64,000 nt of DNA, taken from assembly GCA_903970165.1 (NCBI GenBank), contig CAJCHZ010000028.1, positions 23,855-87,854 on the forward strand, read 5' to 3'. The stretch is from Betaproteobacteria bacterium. Lineage in GTDB: Bacteria; Acidobacteriota; Terriglobia; Acidiferrales; UBA7541. This document shows positions 3,101-41,023 of this stretch, in pieces (the first letter of the stretch is position 1; each line of letters begins with the position of its first letter). The position numbers were made by a program, and so were the translations under genes. The notes under the pieces are model-generated. The model was not told the origin of the DNA. It made no database searches and was given only the letters and a program-made list of their open reading frames with translations.

Positions 3101-5760
3101 TGCGCATCGCACCACGTACGACCGCCTCTTCGCGCCACCATCGCTCGGCAATCCTCGCTTTCGCCGGACTGTTCCTTGCGATTCTACTCCTTGCGCACTT
3201 CGCGCCTCACCTCCGCGCCGACGAACCCTACGCCCGCAGCCGCAACTACGACCTCCAGCACTCCAAAATTGCACTGCGCTTCGATCTGGACCACCAAAAA
3301 GTCATCGGCGACGTAACTCACACCCTCACGATCCTCCGAGACTCCACCTCGAAAATTGTTTTCGATTCCGCAGGCCTCACGATTCAGAACGTCACCGTAA
3401 ACAAATCCACCGCCAAATTCGAAACCAAAGACGACAAGCTAGTCATTTCGCTCTCCACGCCGGCCCACGCCGGCGAAAAATTCGATGTCAACGTCCGCTA
3501 CGAAGCCAAGCCCACAAAAGGTCTCTACTTCATCCTTCCCGACAAAGACTATCCCGATCGTCCCAAGGAAATTTGGACACAAGGCGAATCCGAAGACACG
3601 CGCTACTACCTCCCGACCTACGACTACCCGAACGACCGTCTCACTACGGAAACAATTCTCACCGTTCCTTCCACTTGGATCACCGTCGCCAACGGCAAGC
3701 TGATCAACGTCGTCGACGCGCCCAACAACATGAAAACTTGGACTTGGCGCGAATCCGTCCCCAGCTCCACGTATCTCATCACCGTAGTCGCCGGTGAATT
3801 CGAGGAAGTGAAGGATTCATGGCATGGCCTCCCCGTCACCTACTACGCCCCCAAAGGCCGCGGCGATCGCCTCCCCATCAATTACGGCCGCACACCGCAA
3901 ATGATCGAGCTCTTCAGCAAAAAACTGGGCGTCGATTACCCTTGGGAAAAATACGCGCAATCCATGGTGGATGATTTTGTGGCCGGCGGCATGGAAAACT
4001 CCAGCGCCACCACGAACACTAGCGACTCTCTTCAGCATCCCAAGCTCGCTCCCGAATACTACACGGGCCAGGACGACCTCATCTCTCACGAACTCGGCCA
4101 CCAATGGTTCGGCGACCTTGTCACCTGTAAAGACTGGGGCGACATCTGGCTCAACGAAGGTTTTGCAACTTTCATGGAAACCGTCTGGGCGGAAGCTCAC
4201 TTCGGCAAAGACCAAGCGGACTATGTAAGGTGGGCAAATGCGCACGAATGGTTCGCGCAAACAAATCTCTACAACAAGCCCATCGTTCGCCACGACTTCA
4301 ACGATTCCAGCGAATTCGACGGTAACGCCTACACCAAAGGGGGCTGGGTCCTCTACATGCTGCGGCACCAGCTTGGCGAGGATGCCTTCTATCGCGCCCT
4401 CAAGCACTATCTCGAAGTAAATCGCGGCAAAAACGTGGTCACCGCCGACCTCTCCAAAGCCATAGAAGAAACGACGCACGCCAACGTAGACGAATTCTTC
4501 AATCAATGGCTCTACAACGCAGGCGCTCCCAAATTCGATCTCAGCTACAAGTACGACGACGCCAAGCACGAACTGGCGCTCACCGTAAAACAAACACAAA
4601 AAGTGGAAGACCGCGTCGGCCTCTTTCGGATTCCCACCGACGTCGAAATCACCACCGCCTCCGGTCCAAAACTTTTCCCCATCACGGCTTACCGGGATAC
4701 TCAGACTTTTTCTTTTCCCGCGGATTCCGCCCCGCTGATGGTCCTCTTTGATAAAGGCGGCCACATCCTCAAATCCGCCGAATTTCATAAAGAAAAAAAG
4801 GAGTGGCTCTACCAGTTGAAAAACGCCGGCGAACTCGCCGACCGCCTCGATGCCGTCTCCGCACTCGGCAAACTCAAGAACGACGACGATGTCGTCGCGG
4901 CTCTTGGCGACACGCTTCACAACGATAAGGCCTGGGGCGCCCGCGCCAACTCTGCCGACGCTCTCGGCGAACTAGGTAGCCCCGCCGCCTCCAAGCAACT
5001 CCTCGATGCGCTCAACAGCGCGAAGGAACCCTGGGTGCGTAATCGCATCGCCGCGGCCCTCGGCAATTTCAAAGATGACCCCGCTATCATTGCCAGGCTG
5101 ACTGCCATCGCCAAGGAGGACACTTCCTATCGCGCCCGTGGTTCCGCTCTTCTCGCGTTAGGTCACCTCAAGCCCGCCGGCGCCCTCGCAACGCTCGAAG
5201 CCTCAGTCGCCGCCGATTCTCCTGACGGTTTCCTCCGCAACGCGGCTCTCCGTTCCATGGGCCCTCTGGGCGATGACAAAGCAGTCCCGCTCCTGCAGCA
5301 GTGGTCCGCCGTAGGCAAGCCCACCGAATCGCGTACCGCCGCCATCGCGAGCCTCGCGCGCCTTCAAAAGGACAACAAAGACATCACCAATCAAATCGCC
5401 TCGTTTCTCGACGAGCCCCACTTCCCCGTCCGTGTGGCCAGCATCTTCGCCCTGGGTGCGCGCGGTGACGCCTCCGCTATCCCCGCTCTGGAAGCCCTTC
5501 TCAAGCGCGACGACCTGAGCATCGAAATGGTCCCTATGATTAAAGGCCAAATCGCCCAACTGAAATCCCCATCAGCCAGCAAACGGCATGGCCGCGAAGA
5601 ACCTGACGAGGAAGAAGACGCGGACTCAACCCAACCAGCAGCTTCGGGCAACGATCAAGCCGCCATCACAAAGCGCCTCGATCGCCTCGATCACCTGATG
5701 CAAGAAACGCTCGACCGACTGAAAACAATCGAAACCCGTCTCCCACCTCCAAAGCAATAG
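3100..5760 (+). CDS. M1 family aminopeptidase with C-terminal HEAT-like repeats
   Basis: 886 residues. An N-terminal hydrophobic segment (about residues 16-36) indicates a signal peptide or anchor. The exopeptidase motif GGMEN is at 296-300. The zinc site HELGH is at 330-334, with the third ligand Glu353 in NEGFATF, exactly the HExxH-18-E spacing of gluzincins. Residues 570-800 form Ala/Leu-rich repeated helices (ALGxL, ALGxF, ALGHL patterns) like HEAT/PBS repeats. A charged Glu/Asp linker and a short coiled coil close the protein. The predicted reaction is zinc-dependent removal of N-terminal residues from peptides outside the cytoplasm. It overlaps the ACT gene by one base and ends with TAG, followed by a hairpin. 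Confidence 0.93.
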   Translation: MRIAPRTTASSRHHRSAILAFAGLFLAILLLAHFAPHLRADEPYARSRNYDLQHSKIALRFDLDHQKVIGDVTHTLTILRDSTSKIVFDSAGLTIQNVTVNKSTAKFETKDDKLVISLSTPAHAGEKFDVNVRYEAKPTKGLYFILPDKDYPDRPKEIWTQGESEDTRYYLPTYDYPNDRLTTETILTVPSTWITVANGKLINVVDAPNNMKTWTWRESVPSSTYLITVVAGEFEEVKDSWHGLPVTYYAPKGRGDRLPINYGRTPQMIELFSKKLGVDYPWEKYAQSMVDDFVAGGMENSSATTNTSDSLQHPKLAPEYYTGQDDLISHELGHQWFGDLVTCKDWGDIWLNEGFATFMETVWAEAHFGKDQADYVRWANAHEWFAQTNLYNKPIVRHDFNDSSEFDGNAYTKGGWVLYMLRHQLGEDAFYRALKHYLEVNRGKNVVTADLSKAIEETTHANVDEFFNQWLYNAGAPKFDLSYKYDDAKHELALTVKQTQKVEDRVGLFRIPTDVEITTASGPKLFPITAYRDTQTFSFPADSAPLMVLFDKGGHILKSAEFHKEKKEWLYQLKNAGELADRLDAVSALGKLKNDDDVVAALGDTLHNDKAWGARANSADALGELGSPAASKQLLDALNSAKEPWVRNRIAAALGNFKDDPAIIARLTAIAKEDTSYRARGSALLALGHLKPAGALATLEASVAADSPDGFLRNAALRSMGPLGDDKAVPLLQQWSAVGKPTESRTAAIASLARLQKDNKDITNQIASFLDEPHFPVRVASIFALGARGDASAIPALEALLKRDDLSIEMVPMIKGQIAQLKSPSASKRHGREEPDEEEDADSTQPAASGNDQAAITKRLDRLDHLMQETLDRLKTIETRLPPPKQ

Positions 5761-30038: not shown

Positions 30039-31109
30039 TTGGCGAAATCGACGCCCCACATACCGACGTCGCTGTCCGCGATACAGGGTTACGGCCTGGC
30101 GGTTCTTTCCTTCGCCGCGGCTCTTGGCGGAGCTGTGCTTCTGGAGCGTTTCCACTTCCGCGACGTCGAGGTTCCGCTCTTCCTGTTTTCCGTCGCTTTG
30201 AGCGCGTGGTATGGCGGTACTGGGCCGGCCATTCTGGCGCTTGTCCTCTCTTGTGTGGGGTTCGACTTCTTCTTCGTACAACCTCTCTATACGTTGTATA
30301 TCACGCGTGACGACCTGCCTTACTTCCTTGTTTTCGCCGCTTTCGCGTCGCTGGTCACCTGGTTCAGCACCGTGCGGCGCCGCGTCGAGCGCGAACTAGG
30401 AACACGAACGGCCGAACTCGAAGCAGTAAACAAGGAGCTGGAGGCTTTTGCGTATTCCGTTTCGCATGACCTTCGAGCGCCTCTCCGCCATATGGCTGGA
30501 TTTACGCAGCTTTTGCAAAGAAGTTCAGAGTCGGTTCTAAACGAGAAAAGCCAGCGTTATGTAAAAATGATCCTCGAATCGGCAAACCGGATGGGCGTGC
30601 TGATCGACGACCTGCTATCGTTCTCCAGAATCGGCCGCGCGGAAACCCACAAGAGCTTGTTCAGTCTCGATCAACTCATGCAAGAAGTTCTGACGGAAGT
30701 CCGTCAAGAGACGGAGGGCCGCAACATCTCCTGGAAGGTTGCCAGGCTGCCTTCTTTGTATGGAGACCGTTCCATGCTCCGCCTCGCTCTTGTGAACCTG
30801 ATTTCCAATGCCATGAAATTCACCCGTACCCGTTCTCAAGCCGAGATCGAAGTGGGATATACGGACCAGCAAGATAAGGTTATTGTCTTTGTTCGTGACA
30901 ACGGCGTTGGCTTTGATATGAAATACGTTGATAAACTATTTGGAGTCTTTCAACGACTGCATCCTTCAGAGGCTTTTGAAGGCACCGGCATTGGGCTGGC
31001 CACTGTTCAGCGCATCGTGCTTCGGCACGGGGGCCGCGTGTGGGGTGAAGGTCAAGTGGATAAGGGCGCCACGTTTTACATTTCGCTGTCTAAATCTCAG
31101 GGAGTCTGA
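30039..31109 (+). CDS. Membrane histidine kinase with DUF4118-like sensor region
   Basis: 356 residues from a TTG start. Three or four membrane helices occupy about residues 15-110 in the DUF4118/KdpD-like arrangement (DVEVPLFLFSVALSAWYGG, then FDFFFVQPLY). The dimerisation box is YSVSHDLRAPLRHM with His143, and the ATP domain has RLALVNLISNAMKFTRTR, DNGVGFDMKYVDKLFGVF and GTGIGLATVQRIV. It is followed six bases later by an Rcp1-like receiver and then by a sigma-54 activator, so it probably phosphorylates one of them. The sensed signal is unknown. Confidence 0.92.
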   Translation: MAKSTPHIPTSLSAIQGYGLAVLSFAAALGGAVLLERFHFRDVEVPLFLFSVALSAWYGGTGPAILALVLSCVGFDFFFVQPLYTLYITRDDLPYFLVFAAFASLVTWFSTVRRRVERELGTRTAELEAVNKELEAFAYSVSHDLRAPLRHMAGFTQLLQRSSESVLNEKSQRYVKMILESANRMGVLIDDLLSFSRIGRAETHKSLFSLDQLMQEVLTEVRQETEGRNISWKVARLPSLYGDRSMLRLALVNLISNAMKFTRTRSQAEIEVGYTDQQDKVIVFVRDNGVGFDMKYVDKLFGVFQRLHPSEAFEGTGIGLATVQRIVLRHGGRVWGEGQVDKGATFYISLSKSQGV

Positions 31110-31115
31110 CAACTT

Positions 31116-31568
31116 ATGAGCATTCTTGGACGCATCTTGATGGTGGAAGACGACCCCAAAGACGTGGAGCTTTCGCTCACGGCTTTGGAGGAATACAACC
31201 TGGCCAATGAGGTTGTCGTGGCGCGTGACGGCGAGGAGGCTCTGGACTATCTTTATAAGCGCGGCAAATTCGCGGACCGCCTTAACGGCAATCCCGCCGT
31301 TCTTCTGCTCGATCTGAAACTGCCGAAGATCAATGGGTTGGAAGTCCTGCAACGAGTGCGCGCCGATGAAAAGCTCATGATGATTCCCGTGGTGGTGCTC
31401 ACCTCATCTCACGAGGAAAAAGACATGGTGGCCAGCTACAAGCTGGGCGTGAACGCCTACGTCGTGAAGCCTGTGGAGTTTCATCAGTTTGTAAACGCAA
31501 TCAAAGAACTTGGCGTTTTCTGGGCCGTCATTAACCAGCCGCCTCCAGGAAGCATCCGAAAGAATTAA
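31116..31568 (+). CDS. Single-domain response regulator, Rcp1/CheY-like
   Basis: 150 residues, only a receiver. The acidic pocket is VEDDP (10-14) and the phospho-acceptor is Asp66 in LLLDLKLPK. The conserved Thr/Ser lies in VVVLTSSHEEKD, with Lys in YVVKPVEF. The extended loop with DYLYKRGKFAD is typical of Rcp1-type (phytochrome-linked) receivers. It lies between the membrane kinase and the sigma-54 activator, with gaps of six and nine bases, as one transcript. It is probably a phosphotransfer intermediate or a competing phosphate sink. Confidence 0.93.
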   Translation: MSILGRILMVEDDPKDVELSLTALEEYNLANEVVVARDGEEALDYLYKRGKFADRLNGNPAVLLLDLKLPKINGLEVLQRVRADEKLMMIPVVVLTSSHEEKDMVASYKLGVNAYVVKPVEFHQFVNAIKELGVFWAVINQPPPGSIRKN

Positions 31569-31577
31569 CATCCGGAA

Positions 31578-34571
31578 ATGAAATCTCCGCTGCGAATCCT
31601 GCATCTGGAAGATGACCCGCACGATGCGGAACTGTTGCACGAAACGCTCGAGAGCGAAGGGATCGCCTCCGAGGTCACCCGCGTGGAAGCGGAGGCCGAT
31701 TTCGTCGCGGCTCTCCAGCACAGCAGTTTTGATTTGATACTTGCGGACTACACCCTCCCTTCTTTCGACGGCCTCTCCGCTTTGAGAATCGCACAGCGGG
31801 ATCGGCCGCAGATACCGTTCATCTTTGTTTCGGGAACCCTTGGCGAAGAAGTCGCGGTTGAGGCCCTCAAGTTTGGGGCCACGGATTATGTTTTCAAAAC
31901 GCGCCTCTTCCGAATCATTCCTTCCGTTCGGCGCGCGTTGCGCGAAGCCAAAGAACGAGCTGATCTCCAGCGTTCGGAAGCGGCACTCCGGCTCAGCGAA
32001 GCCTATCTGACCGAAGCCCAGAAAATCAGCCGCACCGGCAGCTTCGGATGGAATGTTTCGACAGGAGCCGTCTACTGGTCCGAAGAAACCTTTCGGATTT
32101 TTGGCTGCCACCCGGCGACCGAAATCAACCTGGACTTCATTATTCAGCGCATTCACCCCGAAGATAGAGAGTCTCACGCGCAATTGCTCGAACGCGCGGC
32201 GAAAGAGCGGCAGGAATGGGTTCACGAACATCGGCTGCTCATGCCCGATGGAACCGTCAAGCATCTGCGCGTCATCGGACATCCTTCCCAGGACGCCTCC
32301 GGCCAGTTCGAATTCGTAGGCGCGATCACGGATATCACCGAGCTGAAACGCAGCGAAGAGGAAATGCGGAAGCTTGCCTCGCTGGTGGAAAACAGCACGG
32401 ATTTTATCGGCATGGCTTCGCTACAAGGCGACGTTCTCTTTCTCAATCCCGCCGGACAAATGATGTTGGGCTTAGCGGGAGACAGACAAGTGCGGGAATC
32501 GAAGATCGCCGACTACATCGCGGAGCAGGATCTGCAAAAATTGATGAACGAAGTTCTGCCGGCTGTTTTCAACAAGGGCCGCTGGGAAGGTGAAACGCTC
32601 TTCAAACATTTTCAGACCGGCGCATCCGTTCCCGTCTGGCAATATATTTTCTTTATCACCGAGGAAGGCAGCGGGCGCCGTCTGGCACTGGCCACAATTT
32701 GCCGTGATATCACCGAACGCAAGCGGGTCGAAGAGGAGTTGCGGCGCAGCGAGAACAACCTGGCGCAGGCCCAGAGGCTCACGCACACGGGCAGTTGGGT
32801 CTGGCGCGCCAGTGATCGTGCTTCCGTGCACCTTTCCGAAGAATGGTTCCACATTTTCGGTTTCTCTCCGGACGAAGGCATGCCCGCGTGGGAAAAAAGA
32901 TTGGAGCGCGTGCATCCGGAAGATCGCGGCCTCTGGCAGGGAGCAGTGGACAGGGTTATTCGTGAAAGATCGAGCCTGGACCTGGAATTCCGAATCAATC
33001 TCCCGGATGGCACGGAAAGGTGGTTGAAGTCCGTCGGACAGCCAGTTTTTGATTCCTCCGGGGAATTTGTAGAGTTCGTGGGCAGCACGATGGACATCAC
33101 CGAGCGCAAGCGCTCCGAGTATGAGTTGCGGCGGAGTGAGACTTATCTCGCCGAAGCTCAGAAATTAAGCCACACGGGCAGTTGGGCTTTCAGCGTCCCG
33201 GCTATCGAGAACGTTTATTGGTCGCAGGAAATGTACCGCATCTTCGGCCTCGAGCCATCTCCGAATCCACCATCTTACATGGAAGTCGCCAGTCGGCTGC
33301 TTCACCCGGAAGACACCGAGTATCACTCCATCGTGCAACAGGCGATTCGAGACAAAACCGATTATGAGACGGAATACCGCCTGGTTTTTCCCGATGGCAC
33401 TCTCAAATATATCCGTGCTACTGGGCATCCGGTCCTGAATGCTTCCGGTGAGGTCGTCGAAGTAGTCGGTACGGCCATGGACGTCACCGAACAGAACGAA
33501 GCGCGCGCTGCTCTGGAGATCGCTTTTGCGGAAATAAAAAAGTTAAAAGACCAGCTCCTCAAAGAGAACATTGCCCTGCGCGATGAAATCAACAAGACCT
33601 CCATGTTCGAGGAAATAGTCGGAGAGTCTCCTGCGTTGCAGTCGGTTCTGGCCCGGGTCGCTAAAGTTGCTCCGACGGATTCCACCGTGCTGATCACCGG
33701 GGAAACTGGCACGGGCAAGGAACTTATCGCCCGCGCCATTCATAAACGCTCGCCGCGCTCCTCGCGAGCGTTCGTCAGCGTCAATTGCGCGGCCATACCC
33801 GCCACCTTGATTTCCTCGGAGCTTTTCGGTCACGAGAAAGGAGCCTTCACGGGAGCCTTAAGTCGCCGTCTAGGACGTTTTGAGCTTGCCGAGGGCGGCA
33901 CCATCTTCCTGGATGAAATCGGCGAGCTTCCCCCGGAAACACAGATCGCTCTGCTGCGCATCTTGCAGGAGCGCGAGTTCGAACGTATCGGCGGAACTCA
34001 TCCCATTCGCGCGGATATTCGCGTCATTACCGCTACCAATCGGGATTTGGAAAGTGCCATCGCCGCAGGCACCTTTCGCCGGGATCTGTTTTACAGGCTC
34101 AATGTATTCCCCATTGAGGTACCGCCACTGCGCGAACGAAGAGAAGATATTCCTACGCTGGTGAAATACTTCATCCATCGCTATTCCAGAAAAGCCGGGA
34201 AGAAGATTGAGACAATCGAAACAGCTACCATGGAATTGCTTCAATCCTATGCCTGGCCCGGAAACATTCGCGAACTGCAGAACGTGATTGAGCGCTCAGT
34301 CATCGTTTGCGACACATCCCAATTTTCCGTCGATCCTAGCTGGCTTTCCCTGGATTCTTCCCCCTCGGGCCATCACGCGATATCCACGGGTCCTGTTCCC
34401 AGGAAATCCGCCGCGCAAGAAAGAGAAGCGATCGAGGAAGCTCTTGCTGCCACCGGTGGCCGCGTTTCCGGCCCCCAAGGCGCAGCTGCCCGCCTTCTGA
34501 TGCCGGCCTCCACACTGGAATCTAAAATTCGAGCCCTCAAAATCAACAAATTCCGGTTTCGTGGAATTTGA
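31578..34571 (+). CDS. Sigma-54-dependent activator: REC, four PAS, AAA+, Fis HTH
   Basis: 997 residues. The receiver spans 1-125 (acidic pair EDDP, Asp57 in LADYTLP). Four PAS/PAC modules follow at about 140-265, 265-385, 385-510 and 515-640; three begin with a shared motif like [17 protein letters not shown] / [14 protein letters not shown], so they arose by duplication. The AAA+ domain has Walker A GETGTGKE from Gly708, the sigma-54 loop GAFTGA at 755-760, then [14 protein letters not shown] and [12 protein letters not shown]. The last 55 residues form a Fis-type DNA-binding helix-turn-helix ([18 protein letters not shown]). It should bind enhancer DNA, read phosphate or small-molecule signals, and open a sigma-54 promoter; one such promoter lies immediately downstream. 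Confidence 0.96.
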
Positions 34572-34646
34572 CGTTCCCCGGTTTACGCCCCCGTGTTATG
34601 TCGTCGTCTGAAGCAGGCACATCTTTCTGCTTTACTTAGCCATTAC

Positions 34647-34696
34647 GTTAAATACAAAGGCTTGTGTTTTGTATTTAACCTCGTGGTTAAATATAA
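34647..34696. promoter_or_regulatory. Perfect 12-bp inverted repeat, candidate enhancer
   Basis: GTTAAATACAAA (34647-34658) and TTTGTATTTAAC (34668-34679) form a perfect palindrome with a 9-base centre. A third half-site, GTTAAATATAA, follows at 34686-34696. The centre lies about 137 bases upstream of the -24 box of the sigma-54 promoter, within the usual range of activator-binding sites. It could also form a hairpin after the activator gene. Confidence 0.55.
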
Positions 34697-34720
34697 GTCC
34701 GTGTCCGCAAAACCGTGGAG

Positions 34721-34755
34721 TTCGCGAAAACTTCGCGAATTCGCGAGGTTCGCGA
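34721..34755. promoter_or_regulatory. Four TTCGCGA repeats, two as TTCGCGAA palindromes
   Basis: TTCGCGA occurs at 34721-34727, 34732-34738, 34740-34746 and 34749-34755, with start-to-start distances of 11, 8 and 9 bases. The first two copies extend to the self-complementary TTCGCGAA. They lie 45 to 80 bases upstream of the -24 element, where an activator or an accessory protein could bind. Confidence 0.5.
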
Positions 34756-34798
34756 GCGCTTGTTTCCTATTAAACCACTTATTATCAGCAATTTGCAT

Positions 34799-34814
34799 TG
34801 GCACCTTGCTTGCA
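34799..34814 (+). promoter_or_regulatory. Sigma-54 (-24/-12) promoter
   Basis: TGGCAC (34799-34804), five bases, TTGCA (34810-34814) match the sigma-54 consensus exactly. GG (34800-34801) and GC (34812-34813) are separated by exactly ten bases. Transcription would start near 34825, leaving a 14-base leader that carries AGG before the ATG at 34839. It lies between the sigma-54 activator gene and the STAS-kinase-regulator genes. Confidence 0.85.
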
Positions 34815-34838
34815 CTGTTTGTGCTCTATCAGGTACCT

Positions 34839-35111
34839 ATGCTGGTCATTAATCGCTCGTCAGATGGTGGTTCGGTTGTTTTCAGGTTGAGTGGGCGGAT
34901 TGAGCCCGAAGATGTCGAGGAGCTGCAAAGGCTCATCGGTTTGGAGCAAGGGCAGGTTATCGTGCTCGATTTAAAAGACTTAACGATCATCGACCGCGAA
35001 GCCGTGACGTTCCTGGCGCGATGCCAAGCAGCAAACATCAAGCTGGAAGCTTGCCCAGCTTATATACGCGAGTGGATAGACGCAGAAAGAGGTCGAGGCG
35101 GTCGGGACTAG
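34839..35111 (+). CDS. STAS-like protein without the conserved phosphorylatable serine
   Basis: 90 residues from the ATG at 34839. A longer frame from 34593 is excluded because the sigma-54 promoter lies inside it. The sequence alternates strands and helices as in STAS domains (VVFRLSGRIEPEDVEELQRLIG, then VIVLDLKDLTIIDREAVTFLARCQ). In SpoIIAA-type proteins the DSS motif carries the phospho-Ser; here it reads DRE, so classical phosphorylation control is unlikely. It may bind a partner or a nucleotide. It is the first gene of the unit with the histidine kinase and NarL-type regulator. Confidence 0.72.
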   Translation: MLVINRSSDGGSVVFRLSGRIEPEDVEELQRLIGLEQGQVIVLDLKDLTIIDREAVTFLARCQAANIKLEACPAYIREWIDAERGRGGRD

Positions 35112-35172
35112 AGTAAGGTGTTGAAAATTAAGGCCCTTATCGTTCGGCGAATCGTAGCTTAGGAGGATTGCA

Positions 35173-36054
35173 ATGAACTTCAACGGTCTCGGAACTCCGC
35201 AATTGCAATATAGCGCGATAGGCGCGGTGAATGGTCTCGCCGGAATTGCAGATAGCGATCTGACTTATGAACCGCTTGCCGAGAAAGCTACTTACGATCC
35301 AACTTCAATCCTAGATGTGCATGCAAAGGCGCGGCTTGCGGAACGCACGCGCATTGCGCAAGAACTGCACGACACGTTGCTACAGGGATTCTTCGCCGTT
35401 TCCATGCAGTTGCACGCCGCGGTGGACCAGTTGCGCGCCGACACACCAGCTAAGTCTCGATTCAGCAATGTCTTACAGGCCATGGACCGCGTCATGGAAG
35501 AAGGGCGGCGGGTGGTGCAAGGGCTACGGTCTAATCCGAGTAGTTTCTCTTCCTTAGCACAAGCGCTCGCCGCCGTTCCTGGCGATATGGGTTTCACTTC
35601 GGCCATCAAATTCCGCGTACTCGTAGAAGGGCGGCAACGCGAAGTTTGGTCCGGGCTCAGCGAAGAGTTGTATCGCATTGGGCGGGAAGCCATTATCAAC
35701 GCGTATCGCCATTCCAACGCTCGGAATGTTGAGGTCGAAGTTGAATATCGAGCCAGCGGGATACGCATCGTTGTGCGAGATGACGGCAGCGGCATAGACT
35801 ACCAACTTCTGCAATCAGGACGGGAGGGACACTGGGGTTTGTCTGGAATGAAAGAGCGCGCGCAAAGCATCGGCGGAAAGTTGAGGATCATGAGTCGCGC
35901 GGGGGCCGGGACGGAAGTCGAGCTATTTGTGGGTGCGCGGATCGCTTTCGAGGCGCCTCCCGACGAACTTTCCACAGAATGGCAGAACCCGCTTTTTCAG
36001 GGGACGAAGGCGGCGAACATTCTTCATTTCAGGATGAGCAGGGTCAGTGAATAA
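35173..36054 (+). CDS. Soluble NarX-type histidine kinase (HisKA_3)
   Basis: 293 residues. A perfect AGGAGG lies six bases before the ATG. The first ~50 residues show no known sensor fold and no membrane helix. The dimerisation box is RIAQELHDTLLQGFF with His66. The catalytic domain has IGREAIINAYRHSNARNVEVEV, DDGSGID and GHWGLSGMKERAQSIGGKL. The kinase must therefore be controlled by a partner, perhaps the preceding STAS-like protein. It overlaps the NarL-type regulator by eight bases. Confidence 0.93.
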   Translation: MNFNGLGTPQLQYSAIGAVNGLAGIADSDLTYEPLAEKATYDPTSILDVHAKARLAERTRIAQELHDTLLQGFFAVSMQLHAAVDQLRADTPAKSRFSNVLQAMDRVMEEGRRVVQGLRSNPSSFSSLAQALAAVPGDMGFTSAIKFRVLVEGRQREVWSGLSEELYRIGREAIINAYRHSNARNVEVEVEYRASGIRIVVRDDGSGIDYQLLQSGREGHWGLSGMKERAQSIGGKLRIMSRAGAGTEVELFVGARIAFEAPPDELSTEWQNPLFQGTKAANILHFRMSRVSE

Positions 36055-36676
36055 AGAAGCCCCCATCCGCATTCTAAGCGTAGATGACCACCCTCTTCTG
36101 CGCGAAGGCCTTGCTGTCATCATCAACAACCAGCCGGACATGCAACTTGTAGCGCAGGCATCGAACGGCAAGGAAGCCATTCAGCAGTTTCGGCAGCACC
36201 TCCCCTCCGTAACTCTAATGGACCTGAGGTTTCCAGACGAAAGTGGCATCGACGTAATGAAAGCGGTCTACACGGAATTTCCTGAGGCGCGCATCATTAT
36301 GCTGACGACGTTCGAGGGAGACGTAGAAATCCAGCGGGCGCTTGAAGCCGGCGCCCGGGGCTATTTCTTGAAAAGCATGCCACCGAAGGAACTGGTGGAG
36401 GTGATTCGCCAAGTTCATTCCGGGAAGAAGCGCATCCCGGCGCAGGTGGCCGCACATCTCGCAGACCATTTAAGCGACGAAGACCTGACGGAGCGCGAGG
36501 TCGAAGTCCTGGAGCACGTTGCCGCAGGGAATCGCAATCGCGACATCGCAAAGAAGCTGTTCATAACGGAAGAAACGGTCAAAGTTCACGTGAAGCACAT
36601 CATGGAGAAGCTTGGAGCCGTAGATCGCACGGGAGCCGTTGCGATCGGCATCCGCAGAGGAATTATTCGCCTGTAA
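36047..36676 (+). CDS. NarL/FixJ-family response regulator
   Basis: 209 residues. The receiver has acidic residues in SVDDHPLLREG and Asp59 in LMDLRFPDESG; the Lys is in YFLKSMPP. The LuxR-type helix-turn-helix follows (DLTEREVEVLEHVAAGNRNRDIAKKLFI, then TVKVHVKHIMEKLG). It overlaps the kinase gene by eight bases and is its likely partner. Target genes are not evident. Confidence 0.95.
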   Translation: MNKEAPIRILSVDDHPLLREGLAVIINNQPDMQLVAQASNGKEAIQQFRQHLPSVTLMDLRFPDESGIDVMKAVYTEFPEARIIMLTTFEGDVEIQRALEAGARGYFLKSMPPKELVEVIRQVHSGKKRIPAQVAAHLADHLSDEDLTEREVEVLEHVAAGNRNRDIAKKLFITEETVKVHVKHIMEKLGAVDRTGAVAIGIRRGIIRL

Positions 36677-37280: not shown

Positions 37281-38756
37281 TTACGAAGCGATGAAAAGAG
37301 TTCGGCCCTCGCGATTCACGAGGAGCAGCGGATCCGTTCCGCTCTTGCGAACAGCGCTCTGGAACTCAGAGACGTTTTTCACCTGCTGATGGTTCACTTC
37401 CTGGATCACGTCGCCCTTTTGCAATCCGGCGTCGGCCAACTTGCTGGATGGGTCCACATCGGTCACCACAACGCCCTTGGTGGAAGCAGGCAGATTCAGC
37501 TGCTCGGCAATTTCCGGATTCATGTTGCTGACATCCACGCCATCCAGAGCCTTTTCCACGCCTTCCTCACCGGACTTGGCTTTGGCCGTTTCGGTTGGCA
37601 TCTCGGCGAGCTTAACGGACAGCTCACGCGGGCTGCCATTGCGAACCAGCTTCAGTTTGATGGTGGTGCCTGGCTCCATCATGGAGATGGTCATGCGGAG
37701 TTGGTTGCTGTCGTCCACCGGTTTGCCGTTCATCTCCTGGATGATGTCGCCGCGCTGCAGGCCGGCTTCTTGCGCTGGACTGCTTGGTGTAACGTCACCG
37801 ACAACCACGCCCTTGGCATCTTTCTCGCCAAAAGCTTTTGCCATCGTAGGAGTGACGTCCTGCGGGAGAATTCCCAGGTATGCGCGAGTCACTTGGCCAT
37901 TCTTTAGAATCTGGCCCATGACGTTGCGCGCGAGGTTCACCGGAACGGCAAATCCAATACCCTGGCTGCCGCCGGAGCCGTGCGTGATGATCGCGGTGTT
38001 GATGCCAACCAACTCGCCGCGATCGTTGACCAATGCACCGCCGGAATTTCCCGGATTAATCGGCGCATCGGTTTGAAGAAAGTCCTCGTAGTCTTCGATG
38101 CCGAGGTTTCCGCGGCCGGTGGCGCTGATAATGCCCTTGGTGACGGTTTGTCCAACACCGAAAGGATCGCCGATGGCCAGGGCCACGTCGCCAACTTCAA
38201 CCTTGGACGAGTCCCCAATGGTGATGGGAATCAGCTTTTCCGCGTCAATTTTCAATATGGCGACGTCCGTCTTCGAATCGGTTCCTACGATCCGCGCCTG
38301 GAATTCGCGTTTGTCGGAGAGAGTGACGCGAACGTCGGTCGCCCCATCCACGACATGGTTGTTCGTCAAAATGTAGCCTTCCGGGCTGACGATTACGCCG
38401 GAACCCAGAGCTTTCTCTCTGCGGTCTTTCGGAACATTGAAATGTCCGCCCTGGCCCCCTCCGAAAAACTGTCTAAAAAAAGGATCCATCGGCTGCTGCT
38501 CGGCGGATTCCTCGCCGCCGTGAACAATTTTCGAAGATGAGATGTTAACGACAGACGGTAATACCGCTTTGACAACGGGGGCGTAGCTTGTCTTGCTCGG
38601 CCCTTCGTTGACATCGGCCAGCTTAAGAGTCGCTGGTGGATTTTTGGCCAGCGAGTTCGCAGTCGTGTGAGCGATGGAGATGCCAGCCGCCCCCAGAACG
38701 AAGCCAACCGCCAGCGCCAATAGTTTTGAGCCTGACGACGAAATAAATCGGTTCAT
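37281..38756 (-). CDS. htrA: Do-family periplasmic serine protease (HtrA/DegP)
   Basis: 491 residues from the ATG at 38756, preceded by GGAAGG; the frame is open to 38822. An N-terminal hydrophobic helix (LLALAVGFVLGAAGISI) gives export or anchoring. The catalytic triad is complete: His134 in LTNNHVVDGA, Asp164 in TDVAILKID and Ser238 in GNSGGALVN. Two PDZ domains follow, with the motifs GVVVGDVTPSSPAQEAGLQRG and VTDVDPSSKLADAGLQKGDVIQEVN. It degrades or refolds misfolded envelope proteins. The gene lies downstream of a kinase/regulator pair in the same direction, with a gap of about 190 bases. Confidence 0.96.
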   Translation of the reverse strand: MNRFISSSGSKLLALAVGFVLGAAGISIAHTTANSLAKNPPATLKLADVNEGPSKTSYAPVVKAVLPSVVNISSSKIVHGGEESAEQQPMDPFFRQFFGGGQGGHFNVPKDRREKALGSGVIVSPEGYILTNNHVVDGATDVRVTLSDKREFQARIVGTDSKTDVAILKIDAEKLIPITIGDSSKVEVGDVALAIGDPFGVGQTVTKGIISATGRGNLGIEDYEDFLQTDAPINPGNSGGALVNDRGELVGINTAIITHGSGGSQGIGFAVPVNLARNVMGQILKNGQVTRAYLGILPQDVTPTMAKAFGEKDAKGVVVGDVTPSSPAQEAGLQRGDIIQEMNGKPVDDSNQLRMTISMMEPGTTIKLKLVRNGSPRELSVKLAEMPTETAKAKSGEEGVEKALDGVDVSNMNPEIAEQLNLPASTKGVVVTDVDPSSKLADAGLQKGDVIQEVNHQQVKNVSEFQSAVRKSGTDPLLLVNREGRTLFIAS

Positions 38757-38949
38757 GTGCCCTTCCTTCTCTCTGATGGCAACCTGCCGAGCGTCCCCGG
38801 GCGGGTTGTGTTTTTGCCACACTCCATCAGACGTCAGGAACCAGAAGATGATGCTCCCGGGCAGTGGGGATATTCCATACCGACGATTGGGTAGGAGGGA
38901 ACCGCTCTTCTATGCAAAAGGAACCGCAAAAGAATGGATGCGGTTGGAA

Positions 38950-39600
38950 CTACGAAATGATGCCTTTTCGAACGGCGTACAAGATTAATTCAGGGACACC
39001 GCGCAAATGGAGTTTTTCCATAATATTCGAACGATGGGTTTCGACGGTGTAAACGCTTAAATTCAGAAGGTTGGCTACATCCTTGTTCGATTTTCCCTCA
39101 GCAATCAACTGAAGGATTTCGCGTTCGCGCGGCGTCAACAGATCGTAGGCATCTTCGGATCCGCTGCGTTTCAGTTTGCGCACGTAGTCGTCGAGGAGAA
39201 TCTTGCTGATCGCGGGGCTGAAGAATGACTTTCCGCCAGCTACCGCATGTACAGCTTTGATGAGATCCGCTTCGGCTGAATCCTTCAAAAGATAGCCCTT
39301 GGCTCCCGCTTTCAGGACGCGAAGGACATAGCTTTCGTCCGAATGCATGCTGAGCATGACCACGGCAATTTCCGGGTGACTTTGCGTAATTTGTTGGGCC
39401 GCTTCAATGCCGTTAAGATTCGGCATACCGATATCCATTACGACCACGTCCGGCTTGAGGGATTTCGCCAAGGCTACTGCTTCCCTGCCGTCGCCCGCTT
39501 CGCCGGCCACGGCTAAATCGGGCTGCTGTTCCAGCATGAGGCGCAGGCCTTTGCGCATGAGCTGATGATCGTCGGCGAGTAGAATGCGAATTTTTTTCAT
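38950..39600 (-). CDS. NarL-family response regulator
   Basis: 216 residues. Receiver: LLADDHQLMRKG and Asp56 in VVMDIGMPNLNG, Lys in KGYLLKDSAEAD. LuxR-type helix-turn-helix: LTPREREILQLIAEGKSNKDV, then VETHRSNIMEKL. Four bases separate it from the kinase gene upstream, a classical kinase-regulator pair. A role in controlling the adjacent htrA is an inference from position. Confidence 0.95.
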   Translation of the reverse strand: MKKIRILLADDHQLMRKGLRLMLEQQPDLAVAGEAGDGREAVALAKSLKPDVVVMDIGMPNLNGIEAAQQITQSHPEIAVVMLSMHSDESYVLRVLKAGAKGYLLKDSAEADLIKAVHAVAGGKSFFSPAISKILLDDYVRKLKRSGSEDAYDLLTPREREILQLIAEGKSNKDVANLLNLSVYTVETHRSNIMEKLHLRGVPELILYAVRKGIIS

Positions 39601-39604
39601 GAAA

Positions 39605-41023
39605 TCAGAGTGATTTTGCCGAAGGCAGCGGGAGTTCCGCTTTCACGGTGGCACCTTTCCCCGGGGTGGACTGCAGAGCCAGCGTTCCACCAAGGCGTTT
39701 CACGCGCTCTTCCATCCCCAGGATTCCCATGCCACGCTGGCGCTCGGGTTCGAAACCGCGACCGTCGTCAGAGACTTCGACGGAGATTTCGCCGGCTGCC
39801 TGAATCACCGAGACCTTTACATTTTTGGCTGCCGCGTGTGTGGACGCATTATTCAGTGCTTCCTGCACCAAACGATAGATACAGACTTTAATTTCGTCGG
39901 ACAGTTTCTCCGACACGTTTTCAGAAACAATTTCCACTTCCGTCTCGCTGCGGCGGGAGACTTCGCGCGCTTGCCATTCGAGGGCTGGGACCAAGCCGAG
40001 ATCATCGAGCATGGGGGGACGGAGCAAAAGCGCCATGTCACGGATGGATTTCACAGCGCGTTCGGCGACGGATTTAATGCTGTCGATTTGTCCGTGGATG
40101 GCGCGGTCTCCGGGAGGGACTAGTTTCGACAATTGGCCAACGTCAACGAGGAGTGCTCCGAGAGTTTGCCCAACTTCATCATGAAGCTCTCGAGAAATGG
40201 AGTGGCGCTCTTCTTCCTGGACCTCAAGGAGACGGGCAGACAGACCTTCCAATTCTTCCCTGCCACGCAGTAAAGCCTGATAGCGCAAACGGCCCTGGCG
40301 CTCGAGGCGGAGGATGTAAAGTCCGGTGACGAGGGACAACAAAATTCCAGCCGTCAGGGTGAGGATGACCATCCACTGAATCCTCGTCTGGACATTCACA
40401 AAATTCACATCGAGAGCCGTTTTCTCTTCGCCGAGCTTTTTGCGATTGAGCAAGGAAATTTCCTGAGAAACCTGAAGGAAGCGCATGCGCTGAGGAATGA
40501 GCTGTTCGCCAATGAAAAGATGAGTGCGTTTGTCGCGGTCCTCGGGCCCCCAGGAGGAAGTGGCGGCGAACGCGTTTTCCTGCTGCGTGAGTACTTGCAG
40601 GAGCTCCTGGACGAGGAGTTGTTCGTCCGGCTCCTCGTCCGATGGATAGCTGAGGAGCGCGGCGTGAATTTCGGCGCTGCGGGTAACGGGATCAAATGGC
40701 TTCGCGGAATCCGCAGTTTTTTGACCCCGCAAAAGAGATTGCTCCATCTGGTCGTCATAGACATGGACAGAAATGACGATAGCGGAGAGTGCCTGGCTGT
40801 GTGTGACGAAGCGGCGGTTGACTTCCTGCTCGATGCCGCTGAGTTTGCGGACGGAAAGGAGGGCGTTCAGTCCGCCGAGTATCAAGAGGAAAAGCAAGCC
40901 TGCAAACGCCGCGAACAGTATTCGGCCGAGTTGGCGCGAGTGCTCCTCAGATTGGGAATCTTCGCCGGGAGCGCGCGTGCGCGAGATATTTTTTTGTGAA
41001 GAGGCTGGCATTGGATCAGGCAT
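39605..41023 (-). CDS. Membrane histidine kinase (HisKA_3) with four-helix-bundle-like sensor
   Basis: 472 residues. Membrane helices at about 32-53 (LFAAFAGLLFLLILGGL) and 212-232 (TLTAGILLSLVTGLYIL) flank a helical outer region of ~160 residues resembling a chemoreceptor-type bundle. The HisKA_3 box is HSISRELHDEVGQTLGAL, followed by the HATPase with VQEALNNASTHAAAKNVKV, DDGRGFE and GILGMEERVKRLGG. It starts six bases after lhr and is paired with the NarL regulator. Signal unknown. Confidence 0.93.
   Translation of the reverse strand: MPDPMPASSQKNISRTRAPGEDSQSEEHSRQLGRILFAAFAGLLFLLILGGLNALLSVRKLSGIEQEVNRRFVTHSQALSAIVISVHVYDDQMEQSLLRGQKTADSAKPFDPVTRSAEIHAALLSYPSDEEPDEQLLVQELLQVLTQQENAFAATSSWGPEDRDKRTHLFIGEQLIPQRMRFLQVSQEISLLNRKKLGEEKTALDVNFVNVQTRIQWMVILTLTAGILLSLVTGLYILRLERQGRLRYQALLRGREELEGLSARLLEVQEEERHSISRELHDEVGQTLGALLVDVGQLSKLVPPGDRAIHGQIDSIKSVAERAVKSIRDMALLLRPPMLDDLGLVPALEWQAREVSRRSETEVEIVSENVSEKLSDEIKVCIYRLVQEALNNASTHAAAKNVKVSVIQAAGEISVEVSDDGRGFEPERQRGMGILGMEERVKRLGGTLALQSTPGKGATVKAELPLPSAKSL

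Follow-up and report, generated by a model that had tools for sequence, protein, structure and literature searches.

The 64,000-nucleotide (nt) stretch analysed here (the window; contig CAJCHZ010000028.1 of assembly GCA_903970165.1, an Acidobacteriota genome) contains a cassette of same-strand genes in which a membrane histidine kinase, a stand-alone receiver and a sigma-54 activator are followed by a STAS protein, a soluble histidine kinase and a NarL-type response regulator (Table 1). The 267-nt gap between the activator and STAS genes (34572-34838) holds, in this order, a perfect inverted repeat, an array of TTCGCGA half-sites, a box of the integration host factor (IHF) type and a predicted sigma-54 promoter, whose first base lies 40 nt ahead of the first base of the STAS ATG. 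The promoter, half-sites and inverted repeat are all located where the initial annotation had placed them. The cassette is quite probably a self-wired sigma-54 circuit, in which the activator, its own tandem enhancer and a -24/-12 promoter would drive the STAS, kinase and NarL-type genes. The activator has the composition of a bacterial enhancer-binding protein, namely an AAA+ domain with a GAFTGA motif and a C-terminal helix-turn-helix (HTH), and the two last genes have that of a NarX/NarL pair: a HisKA_3 domain with its H-box, a HATPase domain and a REC-GerE partner. Both members of this pair score below the NCBIfam cut-offs for NarX and NarL, and no sensor domain is detected by Pfam in the soluble kinase. 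The source genome (5.6 Mb in 131 contigs, 94% complete) has one match to rpoN, the absence of which had been named beforehand as an argument against such a circuit, and three matches to genes of the HU/IHF family.

Table 1 Genes and predicted control elements of the cassette (window coordinates)
Feature	Position	Strand	Remarks
Membrane histidine kinase, DUF4118-HisKA-HATPase	30039..31109	+	TTG start as listed; Pfam; predicted input of the circuit
Stand-alone receiver, Rcp-like	31116..31568	+	Pfam
Sigma-54 activator: REC, PAS repeats, AAA+ with GAFTGA, Fis-type HTH	31578..34571	+	Pfam
Perfect 12-bp inverted repeat, GTTAAATACAAA/TTTGTATTTAAC	34647-34658/34668-34679		Read from the letters
Four TTCGCGA half-sites, predicted enhancer (upstream activating sequence)	34721..34755		Starts at 34721, 34732, 34740 and 34749
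TATCAGCAATTTG, predicted IHF/HU-type bend	34783..34795	+	Exact match to WATCARxxxxTTR
Predicted sigma-54 -24/-12 promoter, TGGCACCTTGCTTGCA (TGGCAC-N5-TTGCA)	34799..34814	+	Transcription start expected at about 34825
Single-domain STAS protein, 90 residues, tail NCPxYIREWI	34839..35111	+	ATG at 34839
Soluble HisKA_3/HATPase kinase	35173..36054	+	H-box RTRIAQELHDTLLQ intact; Pfam
NarL-type response regulator, REC/GerE	36047..36676	+	Pfam; 8-nt overlap with the kinase gene

The predicted promoter has a GG-N10-GC core with TGGCAC and TTGC elements at -24 and -12, which is the layout of the Salmonella promoters listed in PMC3844500. No sigma-70-like promoter was detected by a scan of 34540-34860. 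The exact 11-letter pattern occurs four times in the 5.6-Mb genome, counting both strands; with up to one mismatch it has 90 matches, and the reversed pattern has 89. Because these counts equal those of the control, the match by itself is at chance level and was rejected as evidence, and the weight instead rests on the conserved spacing beside STAS genes. Relatives of the STAS protein were sought in 399 genomes of the same class as the source genome, which gave 71 loci in 47 genomes at E ≤ 1e-10 (own locus included); each was taken with about 5 kb on either side, contig permitting. A sigma-54 activator gene is found directly upstream of STAS, on the same strand and within 900 nt, in 53 of these 71 class loci. 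In 49 of the 71, the pattern TGG-N8-TTGC is found no farther than 120 nt from the STAS start (42/53 with an activator upstream and 7/18 without), whereas each of the other spacings from 3 to 15 is seen in 0-2 loci. With any base allowed before TGC, the counts rise to 49/53 and 12/18. A GG-N10-GC site can be aligned in 68 of the 71 loci, but this number comes from a wide search range, and the 120-nt count is the fairer figure. The expectation that relatives keeping the gene order would also keep the -24/-12 element is thus borne out. Nine weak STAS matches (E 1e-8 to 6e-4) and one further match, G013:C4 (E 1.2e-10), were left out of the counts; in four of the nine, TGG-N8-[TCA]TGC is present within 320 nt.

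In the 68 aligned loci, conserved columns precede TGG, with T, T, C and A over positions -16 to -13 (71-79%) and T and T at -7 and -6 (76-81%), and these columns resemble the IHF consensus WATCARxxxxTTR. In PMC3897727, which gives this consensus, IHF sites are placed at -42/-43, with the enhancer on one side and the sigma-54 promoter on the other. A strict IHF-like pattern is found in 28 of the 68 loci, and WWTCAR-N4-TT[AGC] stands just before TGG in 27 of the 53 activator-linked loci, compared with 0.03 expected from shuffles. A combined box and promoter pattern, derived from the STAS loci themselves, was scanned in eight genomes picked for holding STAS loci; with up to one mismatch it occurs 28 times (4 for the reversed pattern), and of its 10 exact matches nine precede STAS and one lies inside an open reading frame (ORF). 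The window is absent from these matches because its box is one base nearer to TGG. The box in the window, placed between the array and the -24 element, is nevertheless an exact copy of the consensus and a candidate IHF site.

Two of the TTCGCGA copies, those at 34732 and 34749, are 17 bp apart, and the exact core of the array, TTCGCGAATTCGCGA, is unique to the cassette within the genome. The same period is seen in relatives: among 47 loci with long gaps, 97 direct 5-mer repeats at lag 17 are present upstream of the box, as opposed to 3.1 in letter shuffles. Many inverted repeats also occur there, which corresponds to two palindromes about 17 bp apart; an array of the TTCACGAA type is an example from a relative. 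The letters of these arrays differ with the recognition helix of the adjacent activator. Helix labels could be compared for 45 of the 53 activator-linked loci, as six have gaps shorter than 55 nt and two (L109 and L146) are unlabelled. TTCGCGA or TCGCGAA is present in 6/7 loci of helix type [A/P]S-E and in 0/38 others, and GGCACTT in 6/7 loci of type RSD and, again, in 0/38 others. When the nearest enhancer neighbour is taken from another family, the two carry the same helix label at 19.7 of the 45 loci for 7-mers (4.0 permuted, p 0.001) and in 16.7 of 45 for 6-mers (4.1 permuted, p 0.001). The general k-mer correlation between HTH and enhancer is weak (rho 0.18, partial 0.16, Mantel p 0.002). 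Within one genome, G373, four paralogous loci each have a different array. The TTCGCGA array, which the initial annotation had considered a site for an enhancer-binding protein, is likely the enhancer of the adjacent activator, as predicted from the repeats at lag 17 and from the way in which letters and HTH vary together. The same role had been suggested for the perfect 12-bp inverted repeat and was rejected, as inspection by eye of the gaps displayed for relatives did not reveal this repeat; a longer imperfect version of it is also present. In 47 loci the gap is of sufficient length for the likely enhancer to be read beside the activator's own HTH, which opens the recognition code of Fis-type activators to direct testing.

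The first gene behind the promoter encodes a protein whose Pfam STAS match is below the cut-off (20.6 vs 29.2 bits) and which has no NCBIfam match and no match among plasmids. Its AlphaFold model, built from 60 sequences, has a mean predicted local distance difference test (pLDDT) score of 90.9 and shows the STAS fold, with matches to SpoIIAA (complexed with SpoIIAB) and RsbV (complexed with RsbW). In the source records, many relatives are named anti-anti-sigma regulatory factor. Trp79 is present in all 71 proteins, and the tail NCPxYIREWI is shared by the family. The phosphorylatable serine of STAS proteins presumably follows the Asp of the fourth segment. At this place the window has R53 and E54; R is found at 53 in 42/71 proteins, and E or D at 54 in 56/71.

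The genes behind STAS vary between loci. Under a simple rule that takes the longest ORF, 62 of 71 loci received a first downstream ORF on the same strand, at distances of up to 1280 nt; some of these assignments appear spurious. Among the 62 are 11 with a sigma-54 activator domain, 10 with HATPase_c and five from alpha/beta hydrolase families, and RND pumps, dehydrogenase types and ECF-type sigma factors are represented twice each. Ten of the downstream activators were read closely; GAFTGA is kept in nine, and fewer than 120 residues precede Walker A in nine. Because many relatives share the layout and have other genes downstream of it, the layout probably represents a plug-in control circuit, of which the two-tier cascade of the window is one version, the unit of the relatives carrying other cargo. 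The sigma-54 layout is conserved and more general than the initial annotation had assumed. Individual loci offer further observations. At L115 (5323-7338), STAS is followed by a second activator, which has its own long N-terminal part and a Fis-type HTH and possibly forms a two-step activator chain. In L109 and L114, STAS is first followed by a gene resembling that of an ECF-type sigma factor, and the first calls behind STAS in L095 and L131 are RND efflux pump genes. An apparent MFS transporter was noted by eye in L088, and in L142 a NarL-type regulator (5007-5708, minus strand) directly follows STAS with no kinase between.

For the window, the initial annotation had proposed a two-tier cascade, in which one two-component pair makes the other, and this proposal is upheld in part. 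A kinase and receiver lie upstream in 9/71 loci, and in 9/71 a gene related to the soluble kinase is present no more than 700 nt downstream; the two occur together in 8/71, window included (Fisher p 7.5e-9), but five of the eight come from one genus, g37, and are not independent. The order kinase, receiver, activator, STAS and kinase-like gene therefore recurs. What argues against a second tier as the general purpose is that, among the nine loci with a soluble-kinase relative, a NarL-type gene follows only in the window; L087 cannot be judged in this respect, since its contig breaks off within the kinase gene. In addition, the phospho-acceptor His is missing in 6/9 kinase relatives (eight class loci plus L084). 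In the closest relative, L087 (the same as L083; 2-955, minus strand), the kinase is 58% identical and retains an intact ATPase part, and Gln replaces this His (RIAQELQDTLLQ); no H-box was seen in the kinase-like genes of L091, L099, L102, L107 and L112. The window, L084, L110 and L104 retain the His. Because both the His and a NarL-type regulator are present in the window, the second tier may still run there.

Taken together, these features are consistent with the following mechanism. The DUF4118 kinase and the receiver would control the activator through phosphorylation, and until the activator is active the operon would remain off. The REC-PAS-AAA+-Fis activator would bind the tandem TTCGCGA enhancer directly behind its own gene, an IHF/HU-type protein may bend the DNA at 34783-34795, and the predicted -24/-12 promoter would then be fired, with transcription of the STAS, soluble histidine kinase and NarL-type genes. 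The STAS protein, SpoIIAA-like but lacking the usual serine, may be the shared first product that adjusts whatever cargo lies behind it, which in the window would be a sensor-less kinase feeding the NarL-type regulator. A broader proposal, that plug-in sigma-54 circuits form a class spanning the phylum Acidobacteriota, is considered unlikely in its full form: it combines a private enhancer, a composite IHF-sigma-54 promoter and a non-phosphorylatable STAS protein as first product, which would act by partner-switching on sensor-less cargo (a GHKL ATPase, a second activator, an ECF sigma factor, or efflux or detoxification enzymes).

A phylum-wide search of 396 genomes gave matches in 16, of which 10 genomes with 12 loci are new and outside the class. 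The criterion preset for these loci was TGG-N8-NTGC at 15-120 nt upstream of STAS. It is satisfied at six of the 12, with TTGC in four (L193, L195, L202 and L203) and GTGC in two (L197 and L198). In L194 and L204 a TTGC site is present but ends within the last 15 nt before STAS, which brings the N8 spacing to 8/12 overall; other spacings with TTGC occur 0-1 times. Only L193 and L202 show a box that is recognizable by eye as clearly IHF-like. Three of the five activator-linked loci repeat at least 12 of 17 letters at a lag of 16-19, a raw, uncontrolled count.

Beyond the chance-level frequency of the promoter match, several of these results weigh against the self-wired circuit. Outside the class, the preset criterion holds at only half of the loci, four lack the site (L196, L199, which is at a contig edge, L200 and L201), and an activator is directly upstream in only five (L193, L201, L202, L203 and L204). 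Inside the class, 18 of the 71 STAS genes have no directly upstream activator; since seven of these retain the promoter, the pairing of activator and STAS is not strict. The strict IHF-like box is absent in 26 of the 53 activator-linked loci. As for the enhancer, the helix labels were picked after inspection of the data, so that the label counts are post hoc. When STAS identity is limited to below 0.5, the wiring comparison weakens to p 0.03 for 7-mers and 0.11 for 6-mers, and distant pairs in the class comparison give p 0.09; the automatic choice of arrays in that comparison missed the TTCGCGA array of the window.

An alternative is that the promoter is real but driven by another activator of the cell, with the adjacent one acting elsewhere. 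The seven class loci that keep TGG-N8-TTGC within 120 nt fit this reading, as do the outside loci, seven of 12 of which have no activator, with TGG-N8-[T/G]TGC kept in L194, L195, L197 and L198. It is quite unlikely for the window, as the enhancer letters track the recognition helix of the neighbouring activator across families and the four paralogous loci of G373 have four different arrays. Transcription could also read through from the activator operon, or start at a sigma-70-type promoter, in which case the TTCGCGA palindromes would be a terminator or attenuator; the genes are indeed on the same strand with a gap of 267 nt, and a simple scan scored the palindromes at 34732-34756 as terminator-like. 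This is judged highly improbable, given that no sigma-70-like site was found, that the GG-N10-GC spacing is fixed in relatives, and that the letters of the palindromes vary in step with the HTH, which is not what a terminator needs.

A different view concerns the products and not the promoter. STAS and the HATPase protein could be a sigma-54-induced partner-switching pair similar to SpoIIAA/SpoIIAB, the kinase His and the NarL-type gene being leftovers or a local addition. The best matches of the STAS model are compatible with such a pair, as are the change of His to Gln in L087 and the lack of an H-box in the five other relatives, and the kinase frame overlaps STAS in L091, L099, L102 and L112, where starts are those of the longest ORF. 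For the window this possibility is considered unlikely, because Arg and Glu occupy the place where the serine would be expected and because the kinase retains its H-box and has a NarL-type partner. Local activation of STAS and the genes downstream is likely, because layout and spacing are conserved and the enhancer letters track the helix. The initial annotation is accordingly retained for the local sigma-54 circuit, and the second tier is weakened as its general purpose.

The predicted circuit shares a GAFTGA AAA+ activator, a Fis-type HTH, a palindromic enhancer and a -24/-12 promoter with local circuits such as those of FhlA, PspF, NorR and ZraR (Salmonella list in PMC4987338), and the half-site TTCG..CGAA of the window resembles the FhlA site CATTTCGTACGAAATG given there. 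In contrast to FhlA-type circuits, the target operon here is co-directional and directly behind the activator gene, its cargo is exchangeable, it is led by STAS (at every locus, by construction of the search), and the enhancer consists of two palindromes about 17 bp apart. Like the Desulfovibrio orp promoters (PMC3897727), the cassette would have an IHF site near -42 that separates the enhancer from the sigma-54 promoter; those promoters serve divergent operons and their IHF sites were tested, whereas here a predicted box stands at a near-fixed distance from -24. The anti-sigma-factor antagonists SpoIIAA and RsbV have the STAS fold in common with the protein described here, which differs from them in the absence of serine at the usual place, in Trp79 and the NCPxYIREWI tail, and in the predicted sigma-54 promoter ahead of its gene. 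A HisKA_3 kinase and a NarL-type regulator are shared with NarX/NarL pairs; here, no sensor domain is found in the kinase and the pair is not found in relatives. No description of comparable sigma-54 control in Acidobacteriota was found in searches of open-access papers. Members of this phylum are abundant in soil, and their STAS-led operons point to a repeated route by which stress or detoxification genes may come under private sigma-54 control.

Two further features of the window lie on the minus strand beyond the cassette. An HtrA/DegP-like trypsin-PDZ protease (37281-38822) converges on it, and a second REC-GerE regulator (38950-39600), facing the cassette, adjoins an ORF (39605-41023) with weak similarity to the soluble kinase.

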